64,000 nucleotides of DNA from Sthenelais limicola (Eukaryota > Annelida > Polychaeta > Phyllodocida > Sigalionidae), in assembly GCA_942159475.1 (NCBI GenBank), contig OW804095.1, forward strand, positions 87,929,740 through 87,993,739. Reading direction: 5' to 3'. Below, piece after piece: positions 1 to 57,412 of this stretch (position 1 is its first letter; each line of letters begins with the position of its first letter). The notes under the pieces are model-generated. The model was given only the letters and a program-made list of their open reading frames with translations. It ran no database searches and was not told where the DNA came from. The translations under genes were made by a program, and so were the position numbers.

Positions 1-1180
1 TTGATTTCTTTTTGCGTGTGATCGCCCTTTCCTTCATTAAAACCAGTACAGTCCCCATATGATTACTCAGGTTTATATTAATTGGTGCAGAAAAAGCAGC
101 AAACCTCAAGTTAGATAACATCAAATCGATACATGAAGAGTGATTTGGAGTGTACCTAGTTGGTTCGGTAATGTGTGAAGTAAGACCTAGATTTCTTATA
201 AAATCATTCATACGGTCAGAATTTGGACTTCGAGTAAGCATATTTATATTAAAATCACCCAAGAATAATAATGAGTCCCTTATCCCTAATATCATTAAAG
301 GTAGCAAATAAGTGTTCAACGAATGCTTGTTGGCTCCCCGCCGGGGGACGATACACTAAGATTAGACCAAACTTAGCTGGGCCCTGAGGCCTTATTTTAA
401 CACTCATTGTCTCAATATTGTTATTTCACCTCGGGAATGGAGTGCCCATAGACTTTGTATAGGCGTGTTATATACGAGTGAGCGGGAAGAAATATGTTTC
501 ATTCGTCCCTAGGGACGAAACAGATGACCCAGTTTCTCCATCTGCGTTTTCATTGGTTAGAGGGAAAGTAGGGCAGGGTTGTCATGGCATCGTCAACGTC
601 ACGCCCGGCGTCAACGACGGCCGTCATAAACTCAAGCGCCACTGGAACGATGCCACTCCCTTGCCGTGTTTCTCTCACATCAAGTTACCGTAATTAAAAC
701 CATTCCAGCACATTTAAAATCATTCGTAAGAGGTCAAATAAATCTAGAACTAACCTTAGTTATGTATTTCCGATCATTCTTCACCTCGTTGGAGGCAGGA
801 GGGGTCCCTCGGGTCTACGCTACGCTCCGACCCTCGGGAACCCTCCCGCCTCCAACTCGGTGAAGAACGATCGGAAATACATAACTGCGGTCAGTTCCAT
901 CTATGTATCAGATATATAGGTTAGACATTTCTTCAACAATTATATTTTTCAATGTATAGATCATAATCCCACCCCCATTCCCATTCAGTCTATGGTACAA
1001 TCTTAACATGTTATAAACTTTCATTTCAAACATGTGATCTGGTAAGGATGGCTTTAGCCAGGATTCAGAGATGCCAGAATATCAATATTGGTATCATATA
1101 ATAACATTCTAATCTCGTCTAACTTATTAAACAGCGACCGGACATTTAGATGAACAATCCTGAAACCTTTTAAGTTAGTC
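1..1180 (-). pseudogene. LINE ORF2 EEP endonuclease, interrupted, continues off the left edge
   Basis: This is the apurinic-like endonuclease/exonuclease/phosphatase domain that nicks target DNA for target-primed reverse transcription. From about 1170 downwards the minus strand reads HLNVRSLFNKLDEIRMLL, then a degraded SESWL-like step and NGGGIMIYT. After the inserted block it resumes near 425 with VKIRPQGPAKFGLILVYRPP and, near 250, LGDFNINMLTRS. These are the usual EEP signature blocks in the usual order. A frameshift separates the YRPP block from the GDFN block, and at least one stop lies near 910. The catalytic SDH block and the RT are outside the window. Confidence 0.85.
425..886. mobile_element. 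Inserted block with long hairpin, splitting the EEP domain
   Basis: The endonuclease reading stops at about 890 and resumes at about 425, so these roughly 460 bases are an insertion. Its right end is an inverted repeat: 759-814 pairs with 831-886 (outer arms AGTTATGTATTTCCGATC and its complement with few mismatches) around a short GC-rich loop. The rest is GC-richer than its surroundings and contains a near-palindrome, CGTCCCTAGGGACG, near 510. No transposase frame is visible; a non-autonomous foldback or MITE-like element fits best. Confidence 0.55.
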
Positions 1181-1452
1181 AGCTGATTAACTTCAATACA
1201 CATCAGAAAGTTCTAAGCCAATGATAAGTTGTACAGAGCAGATTTGGAACAGCATAATGCCTAACATTGAAGCAATTGTGACATATATTAAATACATTAT
1301 TTGGCATACCCGACATCACCAGTATACTCAGTTTGTTTAGAATAATTGTCCGGTGGATCAGTTCCACGCAGCCACTCGGTATCTGCATGTCGGTCGGCGG
1401 CATTATGGGTTGGCGGAGAATAAGTTCCTCTCACCAGAGTATGCGAAAATGA

Positions 1453-2073
1453 TCAAGGAAGCGGTTGGCTACGCAGTATATGAAATCTCTCAATTTTCTT
1501 TGCAATTTTCAGTTTAAGTTCTTCACTGTAATGTAAACCATCGGTCAGTAGGTGGGTTTTCAATATCAGATTCCACGCAGAAGACTATACAGAGAAGACT
1601 ATACAGGGAGTTGTGGTTAGGCGATCATTGTTCAGGGAATATGTGTGCTGGTTAATGGCAGATATTGCATCGTATATGATCTGCTGTTGTCGTTCATTTA
1701 CATAAGAACTTTGATTATACTGGGTGAGTACCATCGGGATTTTACCCTCCATTGTGATGTACGTTCCCGGGTATTTAGATACCAGGTAGCTAAACCCAGA
1801 GTCAATTCGGTCAATTACCAACTTGCTAAGGGAATCCGCAGTATCAGACGCAGGCGTAACAGTCCATGTTTTCCGATTTAGGTTTGTGCAATCATTGATG
1901 CCCGCCGAAATAATCACTGAATTGTAGCGGTGGTGGGAGGATAGAATATCATCCAACTCCCTAAAAACATTTGCAAGACATGTTCCTTTTCTGAAGCTGA
2001 CTGAAATATCAGGGTTGTTTAAGTATTTACACAATCCATCCCCTCTGGAATCCATGACGATTAGAGTTTGCAT
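1453..2073 (-). pseudogene. SGNH/GDSL-type esterase domain of LINE ORF1
   Basis: An SGNH-fold hydrolase of the type carried by ORF1 of some CR1-like LINEs, where it is thought to act as a lipid or ester hydrolase. The N-terminus reads LIVMDSRGDGL (block I, catalytic Ser), the middle VIISAGINDCT (block III, GxND), and the C-terminus LLTDGLHYSEEL (block V, D-x-x-H). All catalytic blocks are present. One in-frame stop sits at 1585 between blocks III and V, next to a 14-base tandem duplication (1579-1606). Without the stop the frame runs on to 1453. It lies between the NADAR domain and the EEP endonuclease on the same strand. Confidence 0.8.
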
Positions 2074-2283
2074 GATGAATACGATAGAAACAAGTTATTG
2101 AATAGTAGGTGTGATCTAAGAACCACCAACACTGCCAATGCTACCCGTTAATGGGGGAGGGTAGTTGTAGTTGGGACGTACCTGTCCGCCCTGTTGATAT
2201 TCGAAGGTTTGTGCAGGAACAGTGGGCCCTGGGAAACAGACCTGAGGTGGATAATTGGGAGTGTATTGGAGTCTCATATTCTG

Positions 2284-2910
2284 TTAGTCCATTGGCATGT
2301 GTTGTGGCTGTGCTGGCCTGGATTGGAACAATTGGCTGGCAGTATGATTGAAGTCATAGTTCTGTTGTTGTTGTTGATGATGGCCCGCCCAGATGGGCGT
2401 GGCACTCAGATGCATAACATCACATGGCGGTAGACCTGGAGGTTTTATGGGTGTATACAGAACATTTTGCCAGTTTTGGCCTGAGTTGATGGCCGTGCGC
2501 ACATTCTCTAAGATTTGACCCAAATGGTTTTGCCCTGTATAGTAGCCACTTTGCAAATAGGTGGAATCCAGTGTTGCATTCACTCCCCAAAAGGGGTCCC
2601 TGGTTGCCTCGATGAGTGGTTTATTACCAGTGTTAATTAGGAACTCTCTTAGGGACTTATTCTGTTGGAACTTGGCATATGAAATTACTCGCATCTTCTC
2701 AATTTTGTCCCTTTCCCATTCTGGGGTTATTTTAGTAATCAACTTTGAGATGACTCGAGCGTCTCTTGCAGTAGGAGCGTGGAAAAATTAAGTCGCAGAG
2801 TTTAGGCTGGCAATATGTCGCCTTAGTGTATTGAAACGCATGCTCTGCTGATCGGAAATCCTGATCATGTTGGTTAATGTTACATTCTTTGAAATTTGAT
2901 AGCGGGGAGT
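2284..2910 (-). pseudogene. NADAR (YbiA-like N-glycosidase) domain in LINE ORF1 region
   Basis: NADAR domains of the YbiA/RibX type cleave N-glycosidic bonds in riboflavin intermediates or ADP-ribose-like compounds. The N-terminal half (about 2800-2905) reads YSPLSNFKECNI and FRSAEHAFQYTKA, the family's LSNF and S-x-EH-x-xQ blocks. The C-terminal half (about 2490-2742) reads KFQQNKSLREFLINTG, LIEATRDPFWGVN and GQNHLGQILENVR, the family's KF-Q, D-x-xWG and GxNxLG blocks. The halves are joined through about one frameshift near 2815. One stop just upstream (near 2912) separates it in frame from the ORF1 C-terminal domain, so it was probably fused to it. The tail (2284-2480) is Gln/Pro-rich. A host NADAR copy captured by chance is less likely, because ORF1, SGNH and EEP parts flank it in one orientation. 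Confidence 0.8.
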
Positions 2911-2911
2911 A

Positions 2912-3136
2912 TTAGCTCTGGAATAACACTTTGTTCTGATATACTTTTGTCTTGACATTTTGGAGCAACAAATCGTTATCAAGCAGGTCTAATTCACGGT
3001 GTGCGTATGGGACTCCGTCCACTATAAGTTTCTCGCCTTTGATTCTGACATCATCTCTAATCTGTCCTTTGGCTGCTTTCATAATAGCCACCATGTCAGA
3101 TCTGCGCCAGCTGGAAATCTCAGGCATGTCATTCAC
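2912..3136 (-). CDS. LINE ORF1p C-terminal domain fragment
   Basis: About 74 codons, starting MNDMPEISSWRRSDM and containing IRDDVRIKGEKLIVDGVPYA. This resembles the C-terminal nucleic-acid-binding domain that follows the RRM-like part of L1-type ORF1 proteins (a basic strand, then a conserved GVPY/PYxHREL-like turn). It lies directly downstream of the coiled-coil/RRM part, shifted in frame by a few bases. It runs in the same frame into the NADAR N-terminus through one stop codon. I read it as the middle of one ORF1 polyprotein broken by mutation, not as a separate gene. Confidence 0.6.
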   Translation of the reverse strand: MNDMPEISSWRRSDMVAIMKAAKGQIRDDVRIKGEKLIVDGVPYAHRELDLLDNDLLLQNVKTKVYQNKVLFQS

Positions 3137-3145
3137 CTCATCACC

Positions 3146-3616
3146 TCATTCTTTATGCGCTAGGATCTCACAGTTTCGTAATAAAGCATCTTTCATCCAT
3201 TCTTTTGTAAGAATAACTCTTACCGTCCTTGGACGGGGGCCTCTCTGCAACCCCAAACGATAGATGTTTCCTATATCATTGAGGGAAAGCTCAGGGACAG
3301 CCTGACTCAATTTATTATATGCCTGGACCATAAGTACCTCCTTTGTTTTGTCATCACTCTCAGGTAACCAATCAATCCCGATCCTCTTTTCATAGAGAAT
3401 GGTTTCAAGCTTGACAACATGGTCCTCTAGATTGTCCAGCGATATGTGCTCATTTTCCAATGCACTTTCGAGCTGACTAATCCTTTTGTTTGAGGCAGGA
3501 GCAAGTTCAGATTGGGTGTTCATTTGAGCTGTTAACAACTCGATCGCAGAGTGCACCATTTTCAATGAAGCAACAGTACCCTCTAATGTAGGTTTTTCAG
3601 TGTCATTCAGTTTCAA
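3146..3616 (-). CDS. LINE ORF1p coiled-coil and RRM-like part
   Basis: A 156-residue frame. Roughly residues 10-75 have heptad-like spacing and charge alternation typical of a trimerising coiled coil (SQLESALENEHISLDNLEDH). Residues 80-156 resemble the RRM-like RNA-binding fold of transposase-22/L1 ORF1 proteins, ending RTVRVILTKEWMKDALLRNC. Such proteins coat element RNA and act as chaperones. The apparent first codon is not a canonical ATG, and the same frame stays open upstream to about 3690 (Ser/Leu/Gly-rich), so the true start is unresolved. ORF1 C-terminal, NADAR and SGNH parts follow downstream. Confidence 0.65.
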   Translation of the reverse strand: MKLNDTEKPTLEGTVASLKMVHSAIELLTAQMNTQSELAPASNKRISQLESALENEHISLDNLEDHVVKLETILYEKRIGIDWLPESDDKTKEVLMVQAYNKLSQAVPELSLNDIGNIYRLGLQRGPRPRTVRVILTKEWMKDALLRNCEILAHKE

Positions 3617-3699
3617 TGCAGGGAGGTTATGTAAATCGATCTTCTTGATCTGACTTGTGCTAGATGGGGAGCCTAATAGGCTGGATAATCCACCGGGTT

Positions 3700-5504
3700 T
3701 GGTGCAAAAGCTCCATTGTTATTCGCCATACTTCAGAATTTTGGCCAAACTTTTCAGGAAAAATGGAGAAAAACTCCTCAACAAAGTCACTTATCATATG
3801 TCTAAAGGCATGAGTAGGTTCCCGGTTCCAAGACAAGACTAATGATGTAATTTTGGGTAATATCCGTTTGGTGTAGCAGGCTGTGCTCGGAAAAAAACAC
3901 AGAGCGTTTTACGTGCGACTGGCCAGTCCGAACACAAAACAACAGATAATAAGACATGTAGACCTACCATCCCACTTACTAAATATGCATTTTTAATACA
4001 AGATATATACTGAACAATATTATAGAATGAGATAAAGGCCAAACTAACAAAACCGCAAAATATTTAACAGGTTGTTTTCATGTGTTGTCTAGCTATCAAT
4101 TTCCTACTATTCAGTACAGAAATTACATTTTTTTCTTGATGCATTTCATCATACTATTTTAAGCAGTATCATCATACACTATAATGATTATAATATACTT
4201 GAAAACTGATTCGCTCAAACACATCAAAATGGACATTCCCAGGTTGCGCGGATGCACTTAGGATGCACAGCCCTTGCACAGCCATGGACTACTTCTGGAT
4301 TCAGGGAAAAGTGCAGCCAGTGTAAGCCAGCCTTGCGCATCCAGCTGCACTTTGGCTGCAGTTGGCTTGGATGTGCAATGGCTGCGCAAGGGTTGCACAT
4401 CCGGCTGCACTTACACTGCAGCTGGATATGAAGGGGCTGCACAAATTGGCAGGACATTTTTTAGCATGGCTGGTGCAGGCATGGCTGTGTTATTATTATA
4501 AGATTTTACTTCCATTTCACATATACAATCGTTGTCATATATATTAAGTGCAAAAAGATAAAGGAAAAAAATGGAAAAGGAATCATTTATTATCAGCACT
4601 GGCCCTGCATGTTCGCAGACCTTTCCAGCTCTCACCTTGCAATGATAGAAGTAGATGATGAAACCTGGGTCCACTTAGGATACTATACAATATGGATGTG
4701 CATGATGGAGGGGTGTTGTTATTACACCCTCTCTAAAATATCACATACATTAAATACACAATTAGAATATACAATAATGATATCCAAAATGTTTTTAATT
4801 ACAGAATGATTAATATATATAGTGCATACATATTATATATTTGCTTTACTAAGGTTTTCAACATAAAGGAATTAGTAATAATGAGGGGCTGGCTCATGCT
4901 GCCATCTAGTGTTATAGGTGGTGCCATCTGGTGTGATAAGTGGCGCAATGGTAAATGAATGGCAGGATTGGGCACAATGATTAGTCTATGATCAGTATAT
5001 CAGTACACATAAAGAAAGCAAATGGGATATCATTTAAAGACTTAGTTATGAGTATAGTTAATTACACAGTCAACAACGAACCAAGTATACGTAAAAATTG
5101 TTACCATACGTAGTTGTCACATTGCCATTAGAAGCTGACATCTAGTTATGAGGTTGCATGTATGCGGGGAATCCCCTAACCACAAAGTGCGTGAACCTAT
5201 TCGGGTGCTGATGTCACCCAGTGTACGAGGATCTGTTGAATGCGACTTGACCCAGAAAATGTATCCCACTTTGAAGTTTCAACTCAACAGATCATGCACA
5301 GAGTACGCACAGACCCTATGCCCAGGCCATATGTACATGTGATGGGTTTTGGGTAGAGGAGCAGCAGGCAGAGGCAGCGAGCATTGCACACACAGGCACT
5401 CACTCATGAACACTCACCACAACCTCAGTCACATACACACAGGAGTCAGACACAACCGGACATCACATTAAATAATTGATTCTATATCATATTCCTATAT
5501 ACTA
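3700..5504. other. No gene seen; one short-period repeat patch
   Basis: Mostly A+T-rich sequence with no recognisable reading frame. The only structure I see is the CTGCAC/TGCGCA-rich patch at 4235-4450. The phrase TTACAGAATGATTAATATAT near 4800 recurs in similar form near 26045, hinting at a shared decayed repeat. Confidence 0.5.
4235..4450. repeat. Degenerate TGCAC/CTGCA-rich repeat patch
   Basis: Imperfect reiterations of words such as GGATGCAC, GCTGCACTT, TTGCGCA and GGCTGCA, in both orientations, over about 215 bases. Reading frames across it on both strands are Cys/His-rich by composition only. A decayed minisatellite is the simplest explanation. Confidence 0.55.
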
Positions 5505-5727: not shown

Positions 5728-6465
5728 TTAAGGAAGGGAGAAGTGGATGAATCGAGTGCTGAAAGGGCAACTTGCAATCTGGCAACTTGCAACAGTGTAA
5801 CTACGAGGGGCAACACCAGAGAAGTATGCTCTACTGTCAACAAAAATGTTGCTTTCCACTAAATAGCTCATAGCTCCCTCAAAATTCTTCCAATCTAAAT
5901 ATAAAATGATTCTGTTGGTATAAAGAATCACTCAAGTCGGCATCTTAGAAATGTTCTCTTTTATTCCAATATTTCGCCCAGATGGGGGGCTTCTTCAGGA
6001 ATAATACAAGAGGGTTTCGCACGCCTTTATATATGCTGATAATGTGTAGTAAATGTGTAACTCTCCAGCACATAATGTTTAGGAGGCGACACATAATGTG
6101 TCGTTAATGTGTAACTTATATCGGTGAGGACACAAACCGGTTGGAGAATTCATGATAGTTTAATAAGATGATATCTCAATAAATGGTGTTTCAATGTGGT
6201 CTTGATAGTTTTAAGGAAAAAAAACAAAATTATCACTGAACCCCCTGACTGTCAGGAAGACATCCATACTTTAGGATTTATAATCAAACAGTTAGTTCTT
6301 AAGAAATAAATTATTTCCGTTGGCCACATCAAGTCGTTCAATATAAATAACGAACATACGATATAAATAATATAATAACTTGTAAAAACTCAAAAATATT
6401 GCTCCTACTAGATAGCACATAGCTCCCTCAAAATTCTTTCAATCTGAATATAAAATTTATCACAT
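5728..6465 (-). mobile_element. Penelope-like element terminal repeats (tandem, partial)
   Basis: The phrase CATAGCTCCCTCAAAATTCTT appears at about 5868 and again at about 6418. Unit sequence from about 6227-6350 (TTTATAATCAAACAGTTAG, then AATTATTTCCGTTGGCCACATC) recurs at 12150-12230, beyond the LTR element inserted here. The block at 5955-6000 has the look of Penelope-like element ends: on the minus strand CTGAAGAAGCCC, a short loop, then GGGCGAAATATT. No RT or GIY-YIG frame remains. Tandem partial units (pLTRs) are usual for Penelope-like elements, but the assignment rests on motif memory. Confidence 0.45.
5955..6001 (-). ncRNA. Hammerhead-ribozyme-like core motif
   Basis: On the minus strand: CTGAAGA, then AGCCC, a C/T-rich loop, GGGC and GAAA. 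This matches the hammerhead core CUGANGA, stem II, GAAA, with one unpaired A at the base of stem II. Hammerhead motifs are known in terminal repeats of Penelope-like elements. I did not establish stems I and III or the cleavage site, so activity is unproven. Confidence 0.35.
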
Positions 6466-7084
6466 TGAAGAAATGCGGGCCATTCTTCGTAATAATTCAG
6501 GGTCAGTAGTTGGGCGAGAAATTAATCAACGCAACACACAGAGATGTATGCTTCGAATCAGTACCAGCCTCGGAAGAGACCGATTCTCATCTTTTCTTTA
6601 TTCTTATACTAGACAGATTAGAACGAATACACTGGTCCTGCGCTGATTGGCTTTGGTCCCGTTGGTCCAATTAATTGACAGGTTAGATTAGAGATCCAAT
6701 CAGCCACAGGATAACAATGACAGACACTTATTAAAACGAGGCTCAGAGTGACCACTGCCACTCTGACCAATCTCTTTGGGTGGTGACCAGGTCACAGGGT
6801 TATCTCCCCTCCCCTCTCCCTCCCACTCTTTAATCAGTATTCCCTCCCCTCCCCTGACCTGGCGGTCAGCCCCTCCCCTCCTTTCCCATGTGATCGACTT
6901 TGAGATAACGGTCAGACCTGGACCTCACCTGTACCTTTGGACTTTGGGATGATAAGAAATCCGCGAGCGTTGTGGCGGTAAGAAAGTGTGGGTAGCCTTC
7001 TGGCTGGTAGGGGCGCGACGAATGTCTGGCTGAATGAGACAACTTTAACTCAAAATTAGACAATTTAGGCTTGTCAATTTTACA
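6466..7084 (-). repeat. 3' LTR
   Basis: Begins TGAAGAAATGCGGGCC and ends TTGTCAATTTTACA on the plus strand, 619 bp. Preceded by the target duplicate ACAT. Contains a long CCCCTCCC-rich tract near 6808-6890. Confidence 0.95.
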
Positions 7085-8567
7085 TACATCCCAATCTCAT
7101 TTGGTTTGGAGAACTGTGTACAACATAGTTCTCCGAACCACTCTAAGGAGCAGACAATACATCGACGCAACCCTCATTTTAGTTTCTGGCCGACAACCCC
7201 CGAGCAACCCCGAGTATCACCGAGCGGCGACCCCCTTGGCTGACCGAGTTCTGCCGAACCGGAACCCCCGACCTAGAACCATAAGTGGGCTTCACTTTTC
7301 TTCCACTCACGAATCCACTGCCATCCTCAGTCAAATTCTACCCTCGTGCTTCATTAGATTTGGAAGTTTTGATGCCCTATATCTAATTCCACATGAGAGA
7401 CCTTTATTTACGTTGGGGCACCTCGATCCGGCATTTTTAACCACTGGATTTTTAACCTTTGGCCCGCCGGACGAATTCACAGCGGCCATCCCTATGTGGA
7501 TCGAGGCTCCCTTTCTCCCGTAAGTACCTACATGTTTATACAATTGAAAAATGCAAAAATAGGACAATCTAGAGAAGTACAGAGGAAAAATCAACTCCCC
7601 TAAATCAAAATAATAGCTAAAGATTTTACAATGCCTTAGCGTAAAATTATTACTGAAGCACGGCGAACCCGCCTCGGATAATTTGTAAACACAGTCTCTT
7701 AAGAGTTTTCACTAGGTGGCATATTACCGCACTGTCTTTTGAGTTTAATGTATTGTTCATCAATATCTCGGCTTTTCTTGTCTATGGGTTCTCCCCGTAG
7801 AAACGTCTCAGGCATTTTCACGCAGTCTTTGAATATTGCCTTATATTTTTACTCGTTTTTGGGCTGCCTATCACTACTTAACGTCCGTAAGGTGGCAGCA
7901 TGTATCTTATACACTTTCTAGGTACCTGTCGCCGTGAACATCCTCAAGGTGGCGACACTGGTACATACTTATACATTTCCTTTGGGAGCCTGGCTCCTCT
8001 GGTCTAGAAGACTGACAAGATTCTTTTATATTTTCAGCCCTTCTTTCGACCCAAAAATGGCCCGCTGAGGTGTGCACATCGGTCTAGCGACTACCGACCG
8101 TTCCTAGGCTGGTCTCCGTGGTATCACTACTCCATCAACAACGTGACAACCTCCCATCTTTGCTTCACCCTACTTTCAGAGAACGGGTCCTTCATCGTCC
8201 TCTCTCAAGTGGTGGCTTATTCCTTCACATAACAGCTAGCTTTCTCGCCCTAACTTGAGCAGAACAGTGCGTCCCACTGCAAGCTAACACCGGGCGTACT
8301 TACTAGGTAGGAATTGGTGACTAGACCAATTAATTAAATTCTATGAAAGGGGTGAGGACTTTGTCCACAGTCCAGCACTAGGCCTGCTTTAGAGTAAACT
8401 AAACAGCTTTCGTGACAACACCTCCTTTGTAATTATTACCATTAGATTCCAATTAAATTAGCACTACAAAACATTTTAAAATCAGAATCTGCTCACATTT
8501 GCACTTAAGACTAACATTATATCGGCTTAATTTTATCTCACACCACATATTCATCTGAGTCGTTGTT
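7085..8567 (-). other. 3' untranslated part of the LTR element
   Basis: About 1.5 kb between the env stop and the 3' LTR, without a recognisable coding region. An inverted repeat at about 7099-7140 (GGTTTGGAGAACTGTG against CATAGTTCTCCGAACC, 5-base loop) lies just inside the LTR. The minus strand before the LTR is only weakly purine-rich (AAATGAGATTGGGATG), a poor but possible polypurine tract. Confidence 0.6.
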
Positions 8568-9666
8568 TTAACACACTACTCCACGGGGTACTGCAGATCT
8601 TTGTTTCATATCCATCGATCGAGGGGGTTTTGGGGGTGTATTCTGTCTAAAGGAGGATAAGGGGTCAGTTTGGAGGGGTTGGGTCTCCGGGTTTTCGAGA
8701 TCGTCAGTACCGCCAAGGGACTGGGGTTCAGAATCTTGCAGTGGAATCTCTTCAGCGGGTTGCTGTTGGGATGGGTATAAATTAGAAAAGACATTGGGGA
8801 AGGAGGGAAGAGGGGCAGAAGGTTTACTGGGTAGTCTATTTAGACTCTGGTTAGGACGTTTACCTAAGAGAGGGAGGCAAGAGCCGTCTCTCTTCCTCTT
8901 CACATACACCACCACTCCTATCAATCCAATCACGATTGCTAGGGTGAGCATGAGGGTCGCGAATCCCCATGTGGTAGATGCGGAGAAGGAAAAAGGTTGT
9001 ACCGTCGGAGGAAGGGGAATATCGGTCAGAGAAATTAGGGGGACGTCGATTCTGCTGTTGAACTGGAGTTGTTGCTTCAGCTCAGGATAGTCTTCGAACT
9101 TTCTATAGGTTAAGTTGAGAGAGGGTAGGGACAGGGCTTTGGGGGGTGGAATTCTGATCGTGGAATTCCCCGTGTCAATCTCCATGTATACATCTTTTAC
9201 TATGCCTAATTTACCATTTTTGCCAAAAACTTCTGGGTATCTTTCCTCCCAGATTTCTTCCTCTGTTTTGAGGGAAGCAAATTCAGAATCTATTTCTTCT
9301 TCTACCGCTTGACTTTTATATTCTCTACCTCCTAGACGTATGATTCTTTTTCTGTGCCAGATTACTGAATCCAAAATGTCCAGAGCATCGTCCCCTAGTA
9401 GGAGATCGTGTTGGAGGTTTTTAACAATGTATACAGGGAGATGACTACCCCCAGCCTTAATTATCGCCCTGCCTTCTGACTGCAAAGCGTGACCACTCAG
9501 TGACCGTAATTGTTCACCTTGTTCCAAAATTAACGGTCGGTGGTTTACCTTATTGAAATGTTTCCACAAATCATACTTAACTAAACTTCTAGTGGCGCCG
9601 GTGTCGATAAGTGCTTGTGCTTTCCTTCCCGCCACAGGAAGGGCCACACGAAACCGCTTATCCGGC
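8568..9666 (-). CDS. Protease fused by deletion to envelope membrane anchor and tail
   Basis: A 359-residue open frame. Residues 1-100 are a retropepsin: catalytic LIDTGATRSLV at 13-23, with the distal LLLGDDALDIL at about 82-92. Residues 130-170 look like the linker that leads into a Ty3/gypsy-type RT (IWEERYPEVFGK), but no RT follows. From about residue 180 the sequence changes to an envelope C-terminus: a hydrophobic segment ATLMLTLAIVIGLIGVVV at about 230-247, a KRKR stop-transfer, and a Pro-rich cytoplasmic tail with PPKPPR. Pol and most of env were therefore lost in frame. The protease frame lies -1 to gag, with a G-rich run at the overlap near 9672, consistent with ribosomal frameshifting. 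The product would be an unusual membrane-anchored protease. Confidence 0.85.
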
Positions 9667-9670
9667 GAAT

Positions 9671-10897
9671 TTATTCCCCCGAAGGGAGAACAAAGGGGTT
9701 TGTGGGAACTCTGGGAGTCAGGGCTTGTATAGCCGCTATAACGGGTTGCATTTTGTTATCCATTACTTCTTCCATGTCTGGCCGTACAGCCGCTCTCATT
9801 TGTGCGAATCGAGTAGGGCATTCTCTAGCAAAATGTCCCTCCAATCCACATTCATAGCAAGTATTCTTACCTCTAAACCTTTTTCCCCCCTTCTGTGCCC
9901 CTCCCTTCCTTTTCTGACCCTGTTGTGACTCTACCTGATTAGAATTGGCAACCGGGGCAGGGTTTGGAACGCTATAAGGCGGAAATGTAGGCAAATAGGA
10001 TGGTTGCACAAAGGGAAACTGAGTCTGGTTCTGAACTGGTGGTGCATGAACTGTTACCGATGAAGGTTGAGATCTTTCCCTCCCCAAGAGCTCTACCATA
10101 TTTCTTAATGCTTTTAATTCGTCCATCATAGCTTTTGTTCCAACATTGGTCTCCCCAGTAGAGGTCGGTGGAGTCAGAGTTTGGGTTGGCGTCCGAAGTT
10201 TTGGGAGTAAGGCGCCTATTTCCATAGGTTCCTCTCTCCTTTCACCTCTAGCTGGAGCATCGGCTAACGTATGGGTATACGCTGCCGTTGTTGCCAGGTC
10301 AATTGCTTCCCCCAAAGTCTCTGGTCTGGTTGAGAATACCTCGCACCATACCTGTCTATCGGTGAGCCCACGTATAAAATCTCAAGCTAATTGTGACTGA
10401 ATTACAGGCAAGGCCAAAATGCCTGGTTCATAAGCCCTTAGAACTGTTTCCTGGTATTTACGGCCATAAAATCGTATGTCTTCGTATGGGAGTTGATGGA
10501 TCCCCTTCAACTTCTCTCTAAGTTGAGTGGTCTCCTCTTCTCCCATAAACAAGCGAATTATTTCCTGTTTTACACCCTCCCATGTGCGTTCCGCTCCCTG
10601 TGCTTCTACATAAGATTCGATGGAACGTGCTAATGATCCCTGCGCTAACAATATAACTGCTTCTATGGCTATGTTATCATGCGCTCCTACTGTGATTCTA
10701 ACTCTGTCCAACCCCTCTAACCACTCTCTGAGTGATTCTTTGTTGGTCCCATCGTTAGGACCCAGCAAGGTTGCATGTCTCTCCATACGCCTTCTAACTA
10801 CTTCTATTGACGCATAGTGCGCTTTACGATCAGCATCATTGAGTGCATTTACCTCTTCGGCGGTGATTTCCCAGTTAATGGGTGTTGTCAACACCAT
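9671..10897 (-). pseudogene. Gag polyprotein, one in-frame stop
   Basis: Structural capsid/nucleocapsid precursor of the LTR element. It starts at 10897 with MVLTTPINWEITAEEV. A single TGA near 10382 interrupts an otherwise continuous frame, which goes on to a Pro/Gln-rich region and the zinc knuckle CYECGLEGHFARECP (C-x2-C-x4-H-x4-C, near 9850). Basic residues precede the knuckle (KRKGGAQKGGKRFRGK). The middle portion (EGLDRVRITVG to GIHQLPYEDIRFYGRKY) has the look of a retrotransposon gag domain. It ends in LPSGE* just before the protease frame. Only the stop prevents full-length Gag, so it must be a recent mutation or be bypassed. Confidence 0.9.
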
Positions 10898-11084
10898 TTT
10901 GGAGGTAATTGAATTAGCTGATTATGTGTAAAGATGAATTACTATTACCTGCTTGATTTGGAATATTCTATTTCTATATAGAGAATTTGGAATATTAATT
11001 TTTGCCTAGATCCAACGTAACAATTTTTGTGCAGGTATTTCCAAAAACAACAATTTTGATCTCTTTAGTCCCTATTCTTACCCA

Positions 11085-11294
11085 TTACATTTTATCCCAA
11101 TGGTAAGACATAGTGTCTAGCTGTTCAATGCTGATCTGAATCACACTTTCAGAGGTGCCTACGCAGTCGTTCCAATCCTCAGGTTCTGCGATCTGTGGAT
11201 AACCATCATTGAATATCTCCTCTAGGAAAATATCCTCAGCTTGGAGGTATTGTGGGAACTCTTCCACATACTCAATTCTTTCCGCCGGTGGCAT
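11085..11294 (-). CDS. Small acidic leader ORF in the LTR element
   Basis: 69 codons between the primer-binding site and gag, starting MPPAERIEYVEEFPQYL, strongly acidic (many Glu/Asp). I know no family for it. It sits where some retroelements carry upstream ORFs, so it may be a leader peptide or chance. Confidence 0.3.
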   Translation of the reverse strand: MPPAERIEYVEEFPQYLQAEDIFLEEIFNDGYPQIAEPEDWNDCVGTSESVIQISIEQLDTMSYHWDKM

Positions 11295-11491
11295 GTCTAA
11301 AATACTATCTCTACAGGATAAAGTAAGATAATACTTGTGTGATCAGCTAATGCACCTTCCAATAAAAGCCCAGCTCAGAGTCCCAAACATACAACACCCA
11401 TAAATACAATGGCAGTTTTGAAAAAGGCACACTCACCTGACTACTTTTGCTTGCTTCCAAGGTCGGCTACTGATCTGACCAACTAACTAGT

Positions 11492-11509
11492 CCCTAATCA
11501 TGGTCGCCA
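11492..11509 (-). promoter_or_regulatory. tRNA primer-binding site
   Basis: Immediately inside the 5' LTR the minus strand reads TGGCGACCATGATTAGGG. The TGG start pairs with a tRNA CCA end, as expected for a minus-strand primer site one base from the LTR. I did not assign the tRNA. Confidence 0.75.
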
Positions 11510-11510
11510 A

Positions 11511-12129
11511 TGAAGAAATGCGGGCCATTCTTCGTAATAATTCAGGGTCAGTAGTTGGGCGAGAAATTAATCAACGCAACACACAGAGATGTATGCTTCG
11601 AATCAGTACCAGCCTCGGAAGAGACCGATTCTCATCTTTTCTTTATTCTTATACTAGACAGATTAGAACGAATACACTGGTCCTGCGCTGATTGGCTTTG
11701 GTCCCGTTGGTCCAATTAATTGACAGGTTAGATTAGAGATCCAATCAGCCACAGAATAAAAATGACAGACACTTATTAAAACGAGGCTCAGACTGACCAC
11801 TGCCACTCTGACCAATCTCTTTGGGTGGTGACCAGGTCACAGGGTTATCTCCCCTCCCCTCTCCCTCCCACTCTTTAATCAGTATTCCCTCCCCTCCCCT
11901 GACCTGGCGGTCAGCCCCTCCCCTCCTTTCCCATGTGATCGACTTTGAGATAACGGTCAGACCTGGATCTCACCTGTACCTTTGGACTTTGGGATGATAA
12001 GAAATCCGCGAGCGTTGTGGCGGTAAGAAAGTGTGGGTAGCCTTCTGGCCGGTAGGGGCGCGACGAATGTCTGGCTGAATGAGACAACTTTAACTCAAAA
12101 TTAGACAATTTAGGCTTGTCAATTTTACA
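11511..12129 (-). repeat. 5' LTR
   Basis: 619-bp copy of the repeat at 6466-7084, same orientation, about five substitutions (for example GGATAAC against GAATAAA). Followed by target duplicate ACAT at 12130-12133. Confidence 0.95.
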
Positions 12130-26559: not shown

Positions 26560-27579
26560 ATTCTCTCTCTATATATAAGTATGGTGTAAAACAGGGTGTA
26601 AACTGGGTGTAAAGCACCCAATTCCACTCTTAAACAATCTTCATCTTAATTATTGCTCCCACACAGTGAAATAATCTTATTGTGCCCTAAAAGAACACAT
26701 CCAGAAAACAAACCAAAGGAAACTTTTTCAAAGCAGTTTCTCAATGCAGGTTATGGAACATTTCTGAGTAATGGCTTGGAGCAAGATGTGTTGACATCTG
26801 TTTCCACTTCTGTTGGTTCTTGCCAAATTTTCACTTCTTACCCGCATTGCCTGAAAAGCTGGCCACTCTGCCAAATGCAAAACAGAAACGCAAAGTCACC
26901 TTTTGTTCCACAGCTTGAGGAAGGTCATGGAAAACAAACATTTGTCAGGTTCTGTTCAAGCTTTGGGAATGGTAAAGGTTTGTTTACATTTTTACCAGAT
27001 TGGAGAATCTGAATCTATGGCTATGGTGGAATAAAGCGGTTGCAATGCTCATAGTAAACTAGAAAGTTTGTTGGGGAGAAAAATAATGAATTTTAGGATT
27101 CATTGTAAATCATGTGTTTGAAAATTAGAAAAAGGCCGGTTTTTCTTAACATGTGTTTTTCATTCCGGACTGGTCCAGGCTCAGACCTAAGAATCCCTCC
27201 AAAGTTAGGGAAAACCTCTCGCTCCAAACGGCAAAATGCCATTAGAATAGCCGACCATTAAGGTGGCTACTACAAGGCTGGGAAAGCCATTAGCCCAGTA
27301 GGCGTCCAATCACTGACATACCGTTTTTGTCTGATCTGAGCGGCTTTGAGCCTAAACTTTGACAGTATATATACATATAGCTGAAGAATCGTTTGTAACC
27401 ATATTCAAAGAGTAGATTCAACCGAGAGAAAACTACCGCCGATGAGCGATAATAAGTGAAGCCACCGCAGGAAATGATTTTGACCGGTCATATAAATGTG
27501 GCTTTTCATAAAACCCCACAGCCAAAACAACCAGAAGAAATCCTCCAAGCTTTTATCAAATGACTTTTAGATGGGTTTG

Positions 27580-29722
27580 AAAGGAACTGATCAAACAACA
27601 ACTTGGTTTTCAATCGGGTCACTCGACCACGGAAGCTCTAGCGGAATATCTCCTTGACTTAAACAAATCATCCTATAGAAATGATTTTATGTTAACCTGC
27701 TTTATAGATCTAAGTAAAGCTTTTGATACTGTGGTGCCTAAAATTCTTATGGAAAAATTGTCTGATTGTGGATTGCCCCCTAGAGCTATATCATGGTTCG
27801 ATTCTTACCTCTCCAACAGAAAGCAAAAAGTTGTTATGAATGGGAACGAGTCAGACACACAGAACATTGCCTATGGAGTACCACAAGGTTCTATCCTTGG
27901 ACCGACGCTATTTTTATTGTATGTTAATGATTTAAAATATGTAAATTTAAAGGCTAATATACTGCAATACGCAGATGATACGATCTTATATCTTGCAACC
28001 CCAGACCTAAAGGATGGTATTAAAATTATGAATGAGGACCTAGGGAAGTTTGATGACTGGTGTGTTGGTAATAAGTTGCAGGTGAATGCTAAAAAAACTA
28101 AAATTATGGTCTCAGGTAGGAAGAACAAGGTGGATAAGGTAGTGGTAGATGTTCGCCTCAATAATGTTCAACTAGAACAGGTGAAAAGATATGTTTATCT
28201 TGGTATAACGTTTGACCCAAGTACTACTATGGCGTTACAATATAATAATCTGGTTAGCCAACTGAATCATAAATTGTTCATCTTTAGGAAAATTCGACCT
28301 CTCTTAACAAAATTTGCTGCTATAACGATTGCTAAATCAAAACTCCTGTCCATTTTCGACTATAGTCTATTCTGTCTCACCCCCCTTACTGTTACACAAA
28401 TGAAAAAACTCCAAGTTCTCCAAAATAAGGTCCTGAGGGTTGCCTTGCAATGTGATCATTTAACTCCCACTGATGAAATCTACACCACAACAAAGGTGAT
28501 GAGGTTAGAAAACAGGATAAAGTTTAATATTAGTAAAATGGCCCATGATGATGTATATGTAAAAGGTCGTGGCGTAAACCCAATCAGAGCCACTAGACAA
28601 GCTGATGCCCCTACTTTGGAGGGCTTTGCTCCCCGAACTGAAAGAGATAGAAAATGTCTAACAAATCAACTTGCTAGTATATGGAATAATCTTCCCCCAG
28701 AACTTAGAAACACTCGTGACAGGAATTACTTCTGTAGTGCCCTTAAACGGCATATTTTTGCTATACAAGCCAATCCCAATCATATTCCCTAAACACCCCA
28801 ACCGTGACGTATCTCGCCATGGTTGAAAATAAATTCATAACTCTGGTCTCATAATAAATATACATAAAATGATATGTAGGTAATGGTGATTTTCAAAATC
28901 CTCCCTTCCCTTATGCTTGTCATGATTGATTGAAACATTGTGTTGACCTGATTCTACACTGTACTGATCCTGATCCGTACTGGTTGCTTTGCCCCCTCTG
29001 ATCTATGATCTTGTATCCTTTGATCTTGTCCAAAATACCCAGCTGTATATATTAGTCCTCATGTTTAGGACACATGTATGTAATTGATCTTGAACTGTCT
29101 TCCTGTAAATAATACAAGTTCACCTCTCACTGCTTCATCTAATTTAAATCTCATTTCGACTATAAATGTATCAGCTACTCAACTGTACTATGTACTTAAA
29201 ACGACACAAGATGTATTTATATGACACAAAATCCTTACCCCATCCTGCTGTTATCCGCAATTAGTGTCTGTTATCCGCAACTAGTGTCTTGAAAACACAC
29301 CAAGCGATATTCTGTATTGTCAGTGTTATTCTCACCATAATTTTGTCAAGTCTATAATAACTACGGTCTGTATGATTACTTGGTAGTAGTCCCGGTTGAC
29401 TCCCCCCCTACTCCAACCTCACCATACTCCCTCCCAAAATAGTGTATACGATACAAAATAGTCAGTAGCTATCACACCCATTCTCATCCCATCAACACTA
29501 ACCCACCAAGCTTCACCAAGTAATCATTACTTCATGATTTGTTAATTTATCAAAAAATTTGCTTATGTATATGTCAGTAAACCTCATTCAATAATTTACG
29601 TTTATCCCTGCTAAGATAAGTTTGAAACACATTGCGTCAGGGCATTACGAAAATCACTTGCATTTGTGAGACCTGTCTTGATGTTTATTGAATAAAGACT
29701 TTCAAAACGTGAAAAAAAAAAA
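27580..29722 (+). mobile_element. 5'-truncated LINE with intact RT and 3' UTR
   Basis: Begins inside the RT fingers near 27583, keeps one open frame to 28792, then about 920 bases of 3' UTR ending GAATAAAGACTTTC and a short A-rich tail at 29708-29722. 5' truncation and an A-rich 3' end are the expected products of target-primed reverse transcription. Confidence 0.88.
27583..28792 (+). CDS. LINE reverse transcriptase, C-terminal two thirds of ORF2
   Basis: Non-LTR reverse transcriptase, open without a stop. Blocks in order: LGFQSGHSTTEAL, CFIDLSKAFDTV (first catalytic Asp), YGVPQGSILGPTLFLLYVND, LQYADDTILYL (YADD), WCVGNKLQVNAKKTKIMV, YLGITFDP, then the thumb and the C-terminal SIWNNLPPELRNTRDRNYF. 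The first ATG is at 27689 but the conserved frame enters from 27583, so the start is lost by truncation. Endonuclease and ORF1 are absent. The lack of stops marks a young copy. Confidence 0.93.
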
Positions 29723-35841: not shown

Positions 35842-35864
35842 ATGTGACTTAATCTGTCCCTAAA

Positions 35865-38005
35865 ATTATATACCTTATACGGTATTAAAGGGGCTTCTCA
35901 GACATCGATTGAACATATTATTGATGTTGATGGGAACACATTAACGGGTCTTGATGCTGCAAATTACAGCAATAGGTATTTCTGTAATATAATGCCGAAA
36001 TCCTCTGTCGAAGTTTTCTCAGTTAATGAAGACATGGTGAATAACCTTGATGTTTTTGAGTGGGATGGGGAAATTTCCAGGGACGATGTCGTAAAACATT
36101 TTCAGAATATCGATGAAACCAAGTCTAGTGGAATCTTAGATGTAAATACATCTTTTTTGAAACTTGCCTTGCTATCGTGTGCAACCAAATTTACCTCCCT
36201 ACTTGACAAAATTCGAATTTCTGGATCCTTCCCACAGTCATGGAAGATTTCACTTTGCACCCTGATTCCAAAAAAGAAAAATTCAAAAGACATAAATGAT
36301 ATTAGGCCCATCTCGATAGCCCCCATGACCAGTAAGATATTTGAGAAGATTCTGTCAGAAAAAAATTCCGGCTACCTTTTTGATCGAAATTATCTTGCCC
36401 CATCCCAGCATGGTTTTAGGGTGGGAAAAAGTGTGGACACTGCCATCTATGAATTCATGAAATTAGTTGTTGAAAAAGACCAAAGCCTAGATACAGTCAC
36501 AACATATTTTGATCTTTCTAAAGCTTTCAACTCAATAAATATTAAAATCTTGATGCATAAATTGAAAAAATTGGGCTTTGGTCCACGGCTGATATCTCTT
36601 TTGAATTCCTATTCAACAAACCGAGAACAGATGGTCTGTCTGAATGGCAATATGTCTGATAGGCTCTTCATTCATGCTGGCGTGGCCCAAGGCAGTATCC
36701 TGGGACCATTATTGTTTGTTTTGTACATAAACGATGTAGTTGATATAAACTTTGCTGGGAAAATAATTTTATACGCTGATGACTGTGTTCTTCTCCATTG
36801 TATAAGATCTAATAGAGACTTGGTCAATGTCCAAGAAGATGTGAACAAATTTAAGACCTGGACAGAAAAAAATGGTTTGACTATTAACAACTCTAAGACC
36901 AAATTGCAAACCTTTTATGGCATAATATATAATAATAGGGTCCAGATTGATAATGTCCAAAGCTTTAGGTATCTCGGATATCTCCTTGATAGTGGATTAA
37001 CGATGTCTTGTCACATAAACAATGTTTGTGTAAGAACTAACTTATTGTACAAAAGGCTGGCGCGAATTAGACACTATATTAGTAGAGACATTGCACTCCT
37101 AATATTTAAGACATATATCCTTCCAGTGCTAGAATCAAGTACTCTAACTATGGATTTAGGTAGTCCAAAGGGCCTGAAAAGACTCCAGGTAGCTCAAAAT
37201 AATTGTCTTCGGTTGTGCATTGGTGTTAAAACCAGAAGAGGGGCTTACAGGATTAATAATGTAGAATTACATAACAGTCTAGGAATTATTCCGTTATGTT
37301 ACAGAAAACTACAAAAATTCTTTGATGTTTTCTGGAATAGTCATAACTTTGAGGAGGATTTTCCACAACATGACTACAACATGAGGGAAAATAGGGTGAT
37401 ATTAACTCCCTGGCACAAAGAAAGGATTCGTAAGAGTCTTTTTGGCAAAATTCTAAGTTTCTGGAACTCCCTTCCTAGAGAAGTAAAGGTGAATAATGAT
37501 CATACCTTTTTTAAAAATCAAATAAAGAACATATGTAAAAATGCCTTCTCAAATACCCAAAATGTATGGGAGATTCCAAATCCTGAGGGCTTAATATGAA
37601 TGACTACAAATTAGTGCCCAATAACCGGTTGATTTATTAGTATGTCGTCAAAGGTTTATGCTTGTATGAAATCACCCTTTCAGTCTTGATGGCTAATATC
37701 AGCTTATTTCTTGAAACTTACTTTGTTCCTTTGTATTTTGATTGATATTTGAGGGTGAAACGATGCTCCTAGGAATGTTGTTAAAGGATGCTGCCCTAGG
37801 TGATGGTTTTTATTTTTATTTTTCTATCTTTCTTTTGTATAATTTAGCTATTTTTGCATGATAATCATGCCTAATTGGCTCTATTTGTCAAGCTGTCGCT
37901 GTGTCGACTGAATAATTTTTTGTAACATTTTTCTAATATCAGCATGGAATGAGAATAGTGTACACACTACATAATTTCGCTTTGCTGAATAAACATCTTA
38001 AAACA
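35865..38005 (+). mobile_element. 5'-truncated LINE with near-intact ORF2 RT
   Basis: Coding from about 35867 to 37599, then about 400 bases of 3' UTR ending near the double AATAAA at 37988-38010. Inserted in the tyrosine-recombinase element. Confidence 0.85.
35867..37599 (+). CDS. LINE reverse transcriptase (linker, RT, C-terminus)
   Basis: Open for over 570 codons without a stop. N-terminal linker GASQTSIEHIIDVDGN and ANYSNRYFCNIMPKSSVEV. RT fingers DVNTSFLKLALLSC and WKISLCTLIPKKKNS. Palm QHGFRVGKSVDTAIYEF, TYFDLSKAFNSIN, GVAQGSILGPLLFVLYIND, IILYADDCVLLH (YADD). Then FRYLGYLLDSGL and the C-terminal ILSFWNSLPREVKVNNDHTFF. The endonuclease is missing by 5' truncation, so no genuine start codon exists; the first ATG is at 35992. 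A young copy to judge by its open frame. Confidence 0.93.
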
Positions 38006-53515: not shown

Positions 53516-55343
53516 ACTCATGAATAACATGGTTGCATTCTCCCTAATCTGAGCTTTATTCTGATAGTAGGCACTTTATATTTAAACCAATTCGAAAGGG
53601 AGATACTTACTCATAATGTTGATTGGTAATTCCACCAATGCATGGAAAGTTACATAGTAACAAAGAGTTCTGCACCTGGTTTTGCACCTGATGCAAAGTG
53701 CGTCTATTGAAGCACTTCAAAATGCATATCTAAATAAGGTGTAAATACACATGCTGCATACTACAATTAAATTATTTCAACAAGAGATTACTATATGAAG
53801 TGTTTGATTGAAGAAGGATGTTTTGATGTTTTGTATATGGTGAGTCGGTGTGAAATACATATTATAGGAAGCATATCTGTGTCTGTGTTTCTTTTCTTCT
53901 CTCTCTCTCTATCCCCCCCCCTGGTTCTGCCCATATTTCCTCTCTCACTCTAACACATGTCCCATCTGCATTTTCCCCATTTTTTCTGTGTATCTCTCTC
54001 CCGTTCAGCATAATATTAACTAGTAAGCTACTCAAATGTACCAAATTGGTATAGTTTGTCACAGATCAGCGATTTTTCTAAACTTGCCATGTAATCCTCT
54101 TGTCAATTGCAACATAACGATGCTTCACAGGGTCATCTTATAATGCATTTAACCACAATAACTATGAAAAAAATCGATTTGCAATCATCACTTACACATG
54201 TACCTGGCAGATGGGTAGTGGGTAGAAGAGGTGGGTGTGTCAATCTATATTATTGATGTCTAAGTATATATGAGTAAAGATATCATAAATTCTTTTTGTT
54301 TGGTCTCAGAGCCTAATCTATACATAGAAAAGCAATTCTACATATGTTCGAAATAATGGGAATAGCCCTTGTCTTCTTTATGATCATGAACATTGATATG
54401 CGTGGCAGATTCTTAACAGGCCGTCCGTTTTGCACTGACAAGAGCCTACTGTTTATGGCAGACTTATTATAATTTATTTGTTTGTAGCAGCCTTATTATA
54501 AATACATTGAAACAATATCCTATTTGTTCCTTTAATTAATTGCCATAACACCACAAATCATTCATGATGTATCTTGCCATAGGACATTATGCCACTTGCT
54601 TTCACCAGGTGGCGGTACTGTTTTCAGCAGGGGGCGCAGCTGGTAACTGGGGTGGAATTACAATTTCTTTTACAATGAAAGTGCCGCTAATTCACTTATG
54701 TGGAATTTATACCAATATAGATATTCCATATCATGTACATGGGAATGTTATAAGTGATATACCTCTATAGTTTATTTGTTTACTTTAGTTGCTTGATGTG
54801 GAAAAATGTTTCGCGGACGAAACGAATGACCCCCCATCATTGCATACTTCATTAGGCCAAGTAGACTGGGCCACCAAGGTCTTGTGTACAACTGGAACAA
54901 CCCTTCTAGGGGTGCTGCCTGGCAATTGGCTGCCTAACACAATGGAAATATTGATGAAATAACTGATGTATTTTCATGCAAAGACATGGTAACACATCTA
55001 GGTATAAACTCTCTGTATTATATAGGGGTATGTGTTTTTGTGAAGGAATTATCAGCCTAAATTCTGCTAATGTACAGAGGAATGAAACCGGCCTCCCTGA
55101 GTGATCATAATTGCATTTTATAACCTGGTTAGTAGAGCATCTTTGACAGGTTCAGAACCGCATTTTATAACTTGGTAAATAGTGCATTGTTGAGTGCATG
55201 AGAACCGCATTTATAAATCGGGTCCATAGAGCATTGTAAAATCAAGTTTGAGCCACACAACTGTTTACGATTTCCACTGGTAAAGCACCAGGTCAGAATC
55301 AGGTGTGAATGTCCTGGTAAAAATCATGTTAGAACTGATCTAT
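53516..55343. other. Right arm of the TA-flanked transposon, no gene
   Basis: 53669-53800 resembles 49728-49880. A threefold 47-bp repeat lies at 55113-55250. ATGTTTCGCGGACGAAACGA near 54807 resembles the palindromic word near 495. No coding signal. Confidence 0.6.
55113..55250. repeat. Three 47-bp subterminal units
   Basis: GCATTTTATAA(C)...GAACC units begin at 55113, 55160 and 55207, the last diverged. They lie about 100 bases from the transposon end. Confidence 0.75.
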
Positions 55344-55356
55344 TGCACATCGGGTA

Positions 55357-56378
55357 GTGGCAGGACCATGACTTTAGAGATTAGCAAAAGGGTTGATGTT
55401 GGTACTTTGTTTTTTAATTTTGTTATCTGCCAGCTTTTGTAGTTTAATAAGTTTATTAGCTTTTGAAATTGTGATTTGAATTTTAAAGTATTTTCAATTT
55501 CAATACCTAAATATTTGTAATTGTCAACTTCTTGAAGCGATTGTCCATTGAGAACCAATGTGTTTTCAGGCCTCAGGCACAGTTCATCTTTTGTCCACCT
55601 CAATCTCAGAACCGAATTTCTAAAAAAGGTTTGAATCTTGGATTTACTTAGGTTTAGCGATATTTTATTATCCATGTACCAGTAGTTCATGGCATTAAGG
55701 TCTTCTTGTAATTTTTTCGTTATGTCTATTGGGTTATTCCCTGAAAGATAAATTATGGTATCGTCAGCGAACATCTGAATTTTTGAATTTTTTATATAGT
55801 TGGGGAGGTCATTAATTAATGTATATGTTGAATAATAAGGGGCCCAGGGTTGTACCCTGGGGGACCCCGCAGGTTATGTTTGTTTCAGAGGAGGTTAATT
55901 TGTTAACTGATACCATTTGATGTCGGTTTGCAAGGTAATCTTTAACCCAATCTAATTCTTTATCTTTTATTCCGAATGTCATGAGTTTTTGAATGAGGCA
56001 TTGGTGATTTACCGTGTCAAAAGCTTTTTTGAGTTGAGGTAGACTGCCCTTGTTACGAGGTTATCGTTAAGGGCTTCATAGACACTCCACAGATACTTTA
56101 ATAAAGCATCTTGTGTCGATTTCCCTTGCCTGAAACCGTATTGATGACCACATAACCACATGACCACACTCCTCCTCCAAATAATACATGATTTGCCTGT
56201 GCGTAACCTTTTCCATAACCTTAGCTGGTAGTGGGATAGCTGAAATAGGACGATAGTTGCCTGGGTCAGTGATGTCACCTGCTTTAAATAACGGGGTAAC
56301 CCTGGAAACCTTCCAACTAGATGGTATGCTTGATTGAGTATAAGTTAGGTCAATGATATGTTTGAACTGGGAAGCCAA
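55357..56378 (-). pseudogene. LINE G reverse transcriptase
   Basis: Blocks: IIDLTYTQSSIPSSWKVSRVT, GNYRPISAIPLPAKVMEKV, QYGFRQGKSTQDALLKY, a decayed VYL-KAF block near 56040, TCGVPQGTTLGPLLFN near 55850, QMFADDTIIYLSGN (FADD), WYMDNKISLNLSKSKIQTFF, YKYLGIEIENTLKFKSQF and LLLISKVMVLPL, where the TA-flanked transposon cuts in. Frameshifts near 56080, 55990 and 55800. Confidence 0.9.
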
Positions 56379-57044: not shown

Positions 57045-57412
57045 TCAGGAGCAGACATTCCAATTGGGTTTCGTTAAAATTCTTATATGAGCGACATCTG
57101 AAGCTGATTTTTTATATTCTTCTTTGTTTTTTTTTATGATTAAGAAGGTTGCTTTATGATCGCTTATATTCAGGTCCAGAATTCCACATTTCGAAATAAA
57201 CTTTGTGTTGGTGTAAATTAAATCTATTAAGGTTGAACTTGTTGTGGTTTGTCTGGTTGGGAGATGAATAATCTGCCTTAGAGCGGTGTTATTTTCGAAG
57301 TAATTAATGTTTAAGTCACCTGTTACTATTAGTTCCCCTTTGCTGCCTAATTTACTTAAAGACGACAATAAAGAATCAACTGCGGCTGGAATAGATCCAC
57401 TAGGTGGCCTGT
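57045..57412 (-). pseudogene. LINE G EEP endonuclease, C-terminal part
   Basis: From the duplicated target ACAGGCC the frame reads RPPSGSIPAAVDSLLSSLSK, ELIVTGDLNINYFENN, STLIDLIYTNTKF and ILDLNISDHKATFLI: YRPP, GDxN, IDLIYT and SDH endonuclease blocks with the catalytic D, N, D and H. The codons just upstream in the same open frame (KVYQTKPN and before) belong to LINE H's 3' tail. Confidence 0.88.

Follow-up and report, generated by a model that had tools for sequence, protein, structure and literature searches.

A LINE clade of the annelid Sthenelais limicola with a NADAR domain in ORF1 and a usually separate SGNH ORF

The decayed LINE copy in the window

The 64,000-nt stretch of Sthenelais limicola DNA analyzed here (the window) carries at its left end a decayed, 5′-complete copy of a long interspersed nuclear element (LINE), whose first open reading frame (ORF1) includes a NADAR domain. 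The copy spans positions 1..3935 on the minus strand and continues past the left edge, its reverse transcriptase (RT) lying outside the window. These limits come from alignment to the reference copies L010 and L011 (identity over the 5′ 3 kb ~80% and 74%, respectively), and the 5′ end at ~3935 is the one common to the five family-A copies L010-L014. As the original prediction for positions 1,453 to 3,616 had it, all parts lie on one strand in one order: read from 3729 leftwards, the minus-strand translations give a coiled coil, an RNA-recognition motif (RRM) and a C-terminal domain (CTD), NADAR, a Gln/Pro-rich tail, an SGNH-like ORF, and an endonuclease (EN).

The ORF1 remnant (2116..3729, minus strand) is broken by stops and a frame change. 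Its last stop, at 2116-2118, matches the ORF1 end of intact copies (...GGS and stop), so that SGNH is a separate ORF in the subfamily of the window copy. The coiled coil-RRM-CTD part, probably of the type found in L1 ORF1p, lies at 2942..3703 (minus strand) and scores 239 bits with our own profile, which, like the other own profiles used here, was built from the first loci of the same genome; the link to L1 runs through database relatives. The YbiA-type NADAR follows at 2476..2932 (minus strand) in two frames. Its first half (YSPLSNF...SAEHAFQYTK) continues the CTD frame after one stop, as predicted; the second half, however, is in another frame.

For NADAR, Pfam PF08719 matches a single ORF (2284-2742) with E 5.4e-19 and 69.5 bits against a curated cut-off of 35.1, and the two joined half-frames with E 1.2e-26, and our own NADAR profile matches as well; the intact NADAR of L011 reaches 95.3 bits, likewise above the curated cut-off. 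Among PDB entries, the joined window NADAR matches YbiA (2b3w, E 3.3e-5) and the NADAR protein 8bau (E 0.0034). Of the three profiles that the original prediction had named for a check of the joined translation, NADAR thus gives the clear match, while SGNH stays below the Pfam cut-offs (GDSL E 0.0032) and Transposase_22 gives no match.

Downstream of ORF1, the remnant of the SGNH hydrolase ORF (1297..2073, minus strand) retains the Ser, Gly, Asn, Asp, and His of the SGNH blocks and scores 244 bits with our own profile at 1336-2085. Two stops interrupt it, the first within the domain and the other in the tail; it has its own ATG in intact relatives and shares a frame with the second half of NADAR, with stops between them. 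The 5′ part of the EN-RT ORF, an apurinic-type endonuclease, is left in pieces in several frames (2..1206, minus strand), recognized by pieces of our own profile and by PF03372 with E 3.2e-4, under the cut-off. It is interrupted at about 420..906 by a 487-bp insert without assigned strand, which bears a hairpin (inverted repeat arms 747-815/829-897), is missing in L010 and L017, is not present at this site in L011, and is perhaps a small non-autonomous element.

A three-gene LINE clade

A search of the 1.13-Gb genome with the window NADAR ORF yields at least 150 NADAR matches: 150 of the 3700 first-look candidates were scored, and all of them matched. They include the window itself and 16 matches that cover most of the query at 76-85% identity; the remainder are mostly at 35-57% identity, with a few partial ones higher, and many lie in open frames of ~490-690 amino acids (aa). 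We opened 28 loci (20, then 8), which were picked by hand for long open frames and spread and are hence not a random sample. NADAR was the selection criterion; the neighboring domains were not. Profile matches to SGNH occur in all 28 loci and to coiled coil-RRM-CTD and EN-RT in 27 each, next to the 28 NADAR matches given by selection. SGNH lies downstream of NADAR in every locus, coiled coil-RRM-CTD precedes it in 27/28, and EN or EN-RT follows SGNH in 26/28. L016 has its EN-RT match upstream only, the fetched stretch of L033 ends soon after SGNH, and the stretches of L030-L037 could hold the EN part only. Further copies with NADAR between ORF1 and SGNH, whose absence was to speak against the original prediction, are therefore abundant among the opened loci, and the ORF1-NADAR fusion within a LINE is genuine.

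Intact copies define the gene order. In L011 and L012, three ORFs of 540, 258, and 943 aa are open, and Pfam recognizes RVT_1 (E 2.1e-33) and EN (E 1.5e-11) in the EN-RT protein of L011, which in the PDB matches L1, R2, and group II intron types. Full-length family-A copies measure ~5.9 kb and end in AATAAA and poly(A); a simple search revealed no clear target-site duplication in L010-L014. With EN-RT as query (48 of 26518 first-look candidates scored), eight copies missing from the NADAR list were opened, of which one is full length with NADAR and seven are 5′-truncated, their similarity to full-length copies ending at varied points downstream of NADAR. The elements thus combine an EN-RT ORF, 5′ truncation, and a poly(A) tail, lack long terminal repeats (LTRs), and are LINEs.

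SGNH is usually encoded apart from ORF1. It sits on an ORF with its own ATG in 23/28 loci and is damaged in four (L018, L024, L035, L037). Only L033 (G000:C7:33980900-33985500, 754-3258) carries a fused form, an intact 834-aa ORF with coiled coil-RRM-CTD, NADAR, and SGNH. At the 11 measured junctions, the SGNH ATG lies between 23 nt before and 79 nt after the ORF1 stop, with an overlapping ATGA in two, and the frame differs from that of ORF1 in ten; in L011 the two ORFs share a frame, as in the window. A single NADAR-SGNH ORF as the rule is hence rejected, and with it the predicted placement of both enzymes on one ORF1 protein. Since NADAR is C-terminal in ORF1 and SGNH usually has its own ORF in intact copies, these elements form a three-gene LINE clade, with ORF1 (coiled coil, RRM, CTD, NADAR, and a disordered-looking tail), an SGNH ORF, and EN-RT. 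We regard this architecture, and the membership of NADAR in it, as practically certain.

In L019-L021, L025, L028, and L029, a further open frame of 185-253 aa extends from around the stop of SGNH to the start of EN-RT. We do not claim it as a fourth gene, since identity between families is 24-29% and the ratio of nonsynonymous to synonymous divergence (dN/dS) is 0.69 in one close pair (L019/L020).

The element trees, which comprise 12 of the first 20 loci with the other eight dropped, indicate common descent of the parts. Every split between families, and every split within group C, is common to the EN-RT and NADAR trees, two of these with moderate support in the latter (66/75 and 71/82); disagreement is confined to the interior of families A and B. 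The SGNH tree agrees with EN-RT on the main split and most pairs, and the coiled coil-RRM-CTD tree on the main split, with family B unresolved. Judged from this agreement, the clade most likely already had NADAR and SGNH when it began to radiate.

Database relatives provide an indirect connection to L1. Protein-database searches with the window's own protein returned one match each, including P0001. With P0001 as query, 26 proteins including itself were retrieved, 22 of which carry NADAR, 12 of those with at least 400 aa. A profile of the 22 NADAR proteins matches LINE-1 ORF1p (2yko, E 6.4e-11) as well as 8bau and YbiA, and in a profile-profile comparison the coiled coil-RRM-CTD of the genome's family matches the database ORF1-NADAR profile (99.4%, 220 columns). 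The LINEs of the genome group in the NADAR tree with P0027 (97/98), which has a long branch, rather than with the P0001 set; monophyly of all LINE NADARs is not rejected (p-AU 0.19). The tree contained three cellular or phage NADARs only; P0005, P0007, P0008, P0010-P0015, L019, and L024 were left out, as was the truncated P0009. In P0027 (563 aa; ENA source, 8615-base contig), NADAR stands behind a Cys/His stretch that, read by eye without a Pfam match, may be a zinc knuckle, and the protein is possibly a Tx1-type ORF1. Scans of viral contigs gave one large phage contig with NADAR, which was used as outgroup, and otherwise none; the scan of genome contigs found none.

Conservation and candidate role of NADAR

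The catalytic positions of NADAR are largely retained. The window copy has E, K, and E, and its Glu-to-Lys spacing of seven residues equals that of E88/K95 in the E. coli C7 NADAR. Both Glu are invariant among 20 genome ORF1s, many of which are close copies, while the basic position is K in 8, R in 11, and E in one (L010). Twenty-one database rows, from which P0009 was omitted, have E 20/D 1 at the first position, K 5/R 14/M 2 at the second, and E 20/gap 1 at the third. The third position is the Glu of the last strand (LIEA), which is Glu and not Asp or His and was assigned by us from the alignment. E88 and K95 are reported as catalytic by mutation, with the K-to-R exchange keeping in vitro activity (PMC11543638), and for the YbiA family the catalytic residue is given as Glu (PMC11125620).

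Moreover, NADAR is constrained beyond these residues. Its dN is lower than that of coiled coil-RRM-CTD in 13/14 pairs, although loci recur among the pairs and most pairs have saturated dS; in L016/L018, NADAR has dN 0.009 and dS 0.337. NADAR identity exceeds EN-RT identity in 5/5 pairs, for example with 42% versus 31% between L011 and L028. As one of the best-preserved parts of the element, NADAR probably matters for copying. Purifying selection and the retained catalytic positions make an enzymatic role likely, and there is good reason to expect that the domain is catalytically active.

The SGNH ORFs of the relatives stay below the Pfam GDSL cut-off, at best with 26.5 bits against 32.9 (L020), and L011, L027, and L028 are assigned no family; this cut-off is a detection aid and does not define SGNH. 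The protein has the flavodoxin-like fold, and Foldseek lists the esterase structure 4c1b (E 2.8e-5), which superposes poorly (TMq 0.34). An AlphaFold model from the single window SGNH sequence (pLDDT 38) led nowhere. Across 18 SGNH ORFs, excluding the damaged L018 and L024, the block residues are S 18, G 18, N 12/C 6, D 18, and H 17/R 1 (L011). dN/dS is 0.07-0.15 in three family-A pairs and 0.26 in L019/L020. The six Cys, all in group C (L023, L025, L026, L027, L028, L029), replace the oxyanion-hole Asn next to unchanged Ser, Gly, Asp, and His; esterase activity may be changed or lost in these proteins.

As the role of NADAR, we favor, with some confidence, an autonomous three-gene LINE whose ORF1p uses the domain to clear guanine ADP-ribose from bound nucleic acid. 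ORF1p would coat the RNA of the element as in L1, and its NADAR would hydrolyze ADP-ribose off guanines in the RNA to which ORF1p is bound, or else in newly made cDNA or the target DNA. Removal would keep the template readable for RT by undoing guanine ADP-ribosylation of host or environmental origin. The SGNH protein would work apart, perhaps at membranes as proposed for ZfL2-1. Fusion of NADAR to an RNA-coating protein favors the element's own nucleic acid as substrate, and we consider it about an even call that nucleic-acid guanine is the main one. NADARs can undo the ADP-ribosylation of guanosine in RNA and DNA (PMC11833690, PMC11125620, PMC11543638) and are described in PMC11833690 as the only hydrolase family found to do so on RNA; an activity that ADP-ribosylates guanine has been reported in six clams and also in butterflies (PMC11209040). 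A more tentative extension is that animals defend themselves by ADP-ribosylating guanines in the RNA or cDNA of retrotransposons, and that this LINE clade has long carried an eraser fused to its RNA-coat protein as a counter-defense.

Several points weigh against clearance of guanine ADP-ribose by ORF1p. Riboflavin intermediates are also substrates of YbiA-type NADARs. Arg takes the place of the catalytic Lys in families B and C (11/20 ORF1s) and in 14/21 database rows; other replacements are Glu in L010, Met in two database rows, and Phe in P0027. The Arg form is reported to hydrolyze in vitro and to fail in rescuing cells, and the second Glu to be dispensable in a BC4488-type enzyme (PMC11543638); its equivalence to the LIEA Glu is our own assignment. 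The nearly identical copies L019/L020 are the sole exception to the lower NADAR dN and show a NADAR dN/dS of 0.26. Pfam Transposase_22 is matched neither in the window nor in 10 members, so the L1-type homology of RRM-CTD is indirect, and in a PDB profile search with coiled coil-RRM-CTD, the best 60 of 126 rows are influenza HA2 coiled-coil structures, which we judge an artifact. Further, the SGNH tree joins L026 with L027 (95/94) and thereby contradicts EN-RT, which groups L027 with other group-C loci without L026 (92/94); SGNH may have been exchanged inside group C.

Alternatively, NADAR could act in trans and blunt innate host defense, its targets being ADP-ribosylated proteins or small signals derived from ADP-ribose or NAD, by analogy to NADARs of animal RNA viruses, proposed to act against host ADP-ribosylation, and of phages, proposed to act against small ADP-ribose signals (PMC9503650). 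We consider this unlikely, since a nucleic-acid substrate better fits a domain placed behind RRM-CTD in 27/28 loci and in database ORF1s of 400 aa and more, and the activity demonstrated for NADARs concerns guanine ADP-ribose in DNA and RNA (PMC11125620, PMC11833690). It is quite unlikely that the domain persists in ORF1p without catalysis, as a nucleotide-binding or structural module. The Lys replacements in L010, P0027, and two database rows would fit such a module, and the group-C SGNH with Cys for Asn in 6/18 ORFs demonstrates that enzyme-like domains of these elements can alter active-site residues; yet both Glu are invariant and the residue between them is basic in 19/20 ORF1s, and NADAR evolves more slowly than the rest of ORF1 in all but one pair. 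One bifunctional NADAR-SGNH protein, as suggested by the intact ORF of L033 and by the shared frame in L011 and the window, is highly improbable given the separate ATG of most SGNH ORFs and their different frame at most junctions. Finally, a one-off host-gene insertion or nested chimera, which the broken window copy alone could not exclude, can be dismissed, since NADAR recurs between coiled coil-RRM-CTD and SGNH across the opened loci, five 5.9-kb copies have one 5′ end, and EN-RT and NADAR trees agree between families.

Other elements of the window and relation to known retroelements

Outside 1336-3703, the window contains no profile matches to NADAR, SGNH, or coiled coil-RRM (E < 0.01). At 6463-11807, two LTR-like direct repeats of 300 bp, 99% identical, delimit an element that looks young; inside it, on the minus strand, are two ORFs named by eye, one gag-like with CCHC (9671-10315) and one retropepsin-like (8568-9647). 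An RT fragment at 27560-28783 (plus strand), the best EN-RT profile match of the window (525 bits), belongs to a further element of the superfamily and has no ORF1 or SGNH match upstream. More distant LINE RT remains lie at 35863-37563 (plus strand) and 55304-59314 (minus strand).

L1 ORF1p is not known to have an enzyme domain. Its order of coiled coil, RRM, and CTD (PDB 2yko) is that assigned to the ORF1 described here. ORF1 types have been classified before (PMC4120745), and esterase-type ORF1ps were called unique among ORF1ps for their enzymatic function (PMC3905857). In these ZfL2-1/CR1/RTEX elements (PMC3905857; PDB 4c1b), an SGNH hydrolase also lies upstream of EN-RT. There, as described, ORF1 itself encodes the esterase, which follows a coiled coil and has no structured RNA-binding domains beside it, whereas here SGNH is a further ORF behind an ORF1 with RRM-CTD-NADAR. 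A stand-alone SGNH/GDSL ORF is likewise known as ORF3 of bdelloid retroelements (PMC5408684); its hosts are LTR and Penelope-like elements, and the excerpted text of that source does not mention NADAR.

NADAR itself has been noted, with unclear role, in several Tx1 LINE ORF1s of Crassostrea gigas and in Pol of some Ectocarpus Gypsy elements (PMC12477816). The latter are LTR elements with a recruited NADAR at the N-terminus of Pol. The former share with our elements a YbiA-type NADAR in a LINE ORF1. They are covered there by one sentence, in a main text without SGNH, esterase, or "three ORF"; compared with that paper's description, the clade reported here differs by its coiled coil-RRM-CTD ORF1 and its usually separate SGNH ORF. 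The original prediction, which did not know a NADAR at this position to be established, hence needs qualifying, since NADAR in a LINE ORF1 as such had been noted. A LINE with a coiled coil-RRM-CTD-NADAR ORF1 and a separate SGNH ORF was not found in the literature, a search whose scope excluded Repbase and preprints, where named entries may exist. What seems new is the architecture, NADAR in a LINE ORF1 being already in print (PMC12477816).

A second enzyme domain that is better conserved than EN-RT in the compared pairs and held through deep LINE divergence points to an unknown step of, or threat to, retrotransposition. Some animal "NADAR genes" in surveys may in fact be LINE ORF1s. With NADAR reported as the only hydrolase family found to erase guanosine ADP-ribose on RNA (PMC11833690) and guanine ADP-ribosylating activity present in clams and butterflies (PMC11209040), the element would offer a testable route to nucleic-acid ADP-ribosylation in animals.

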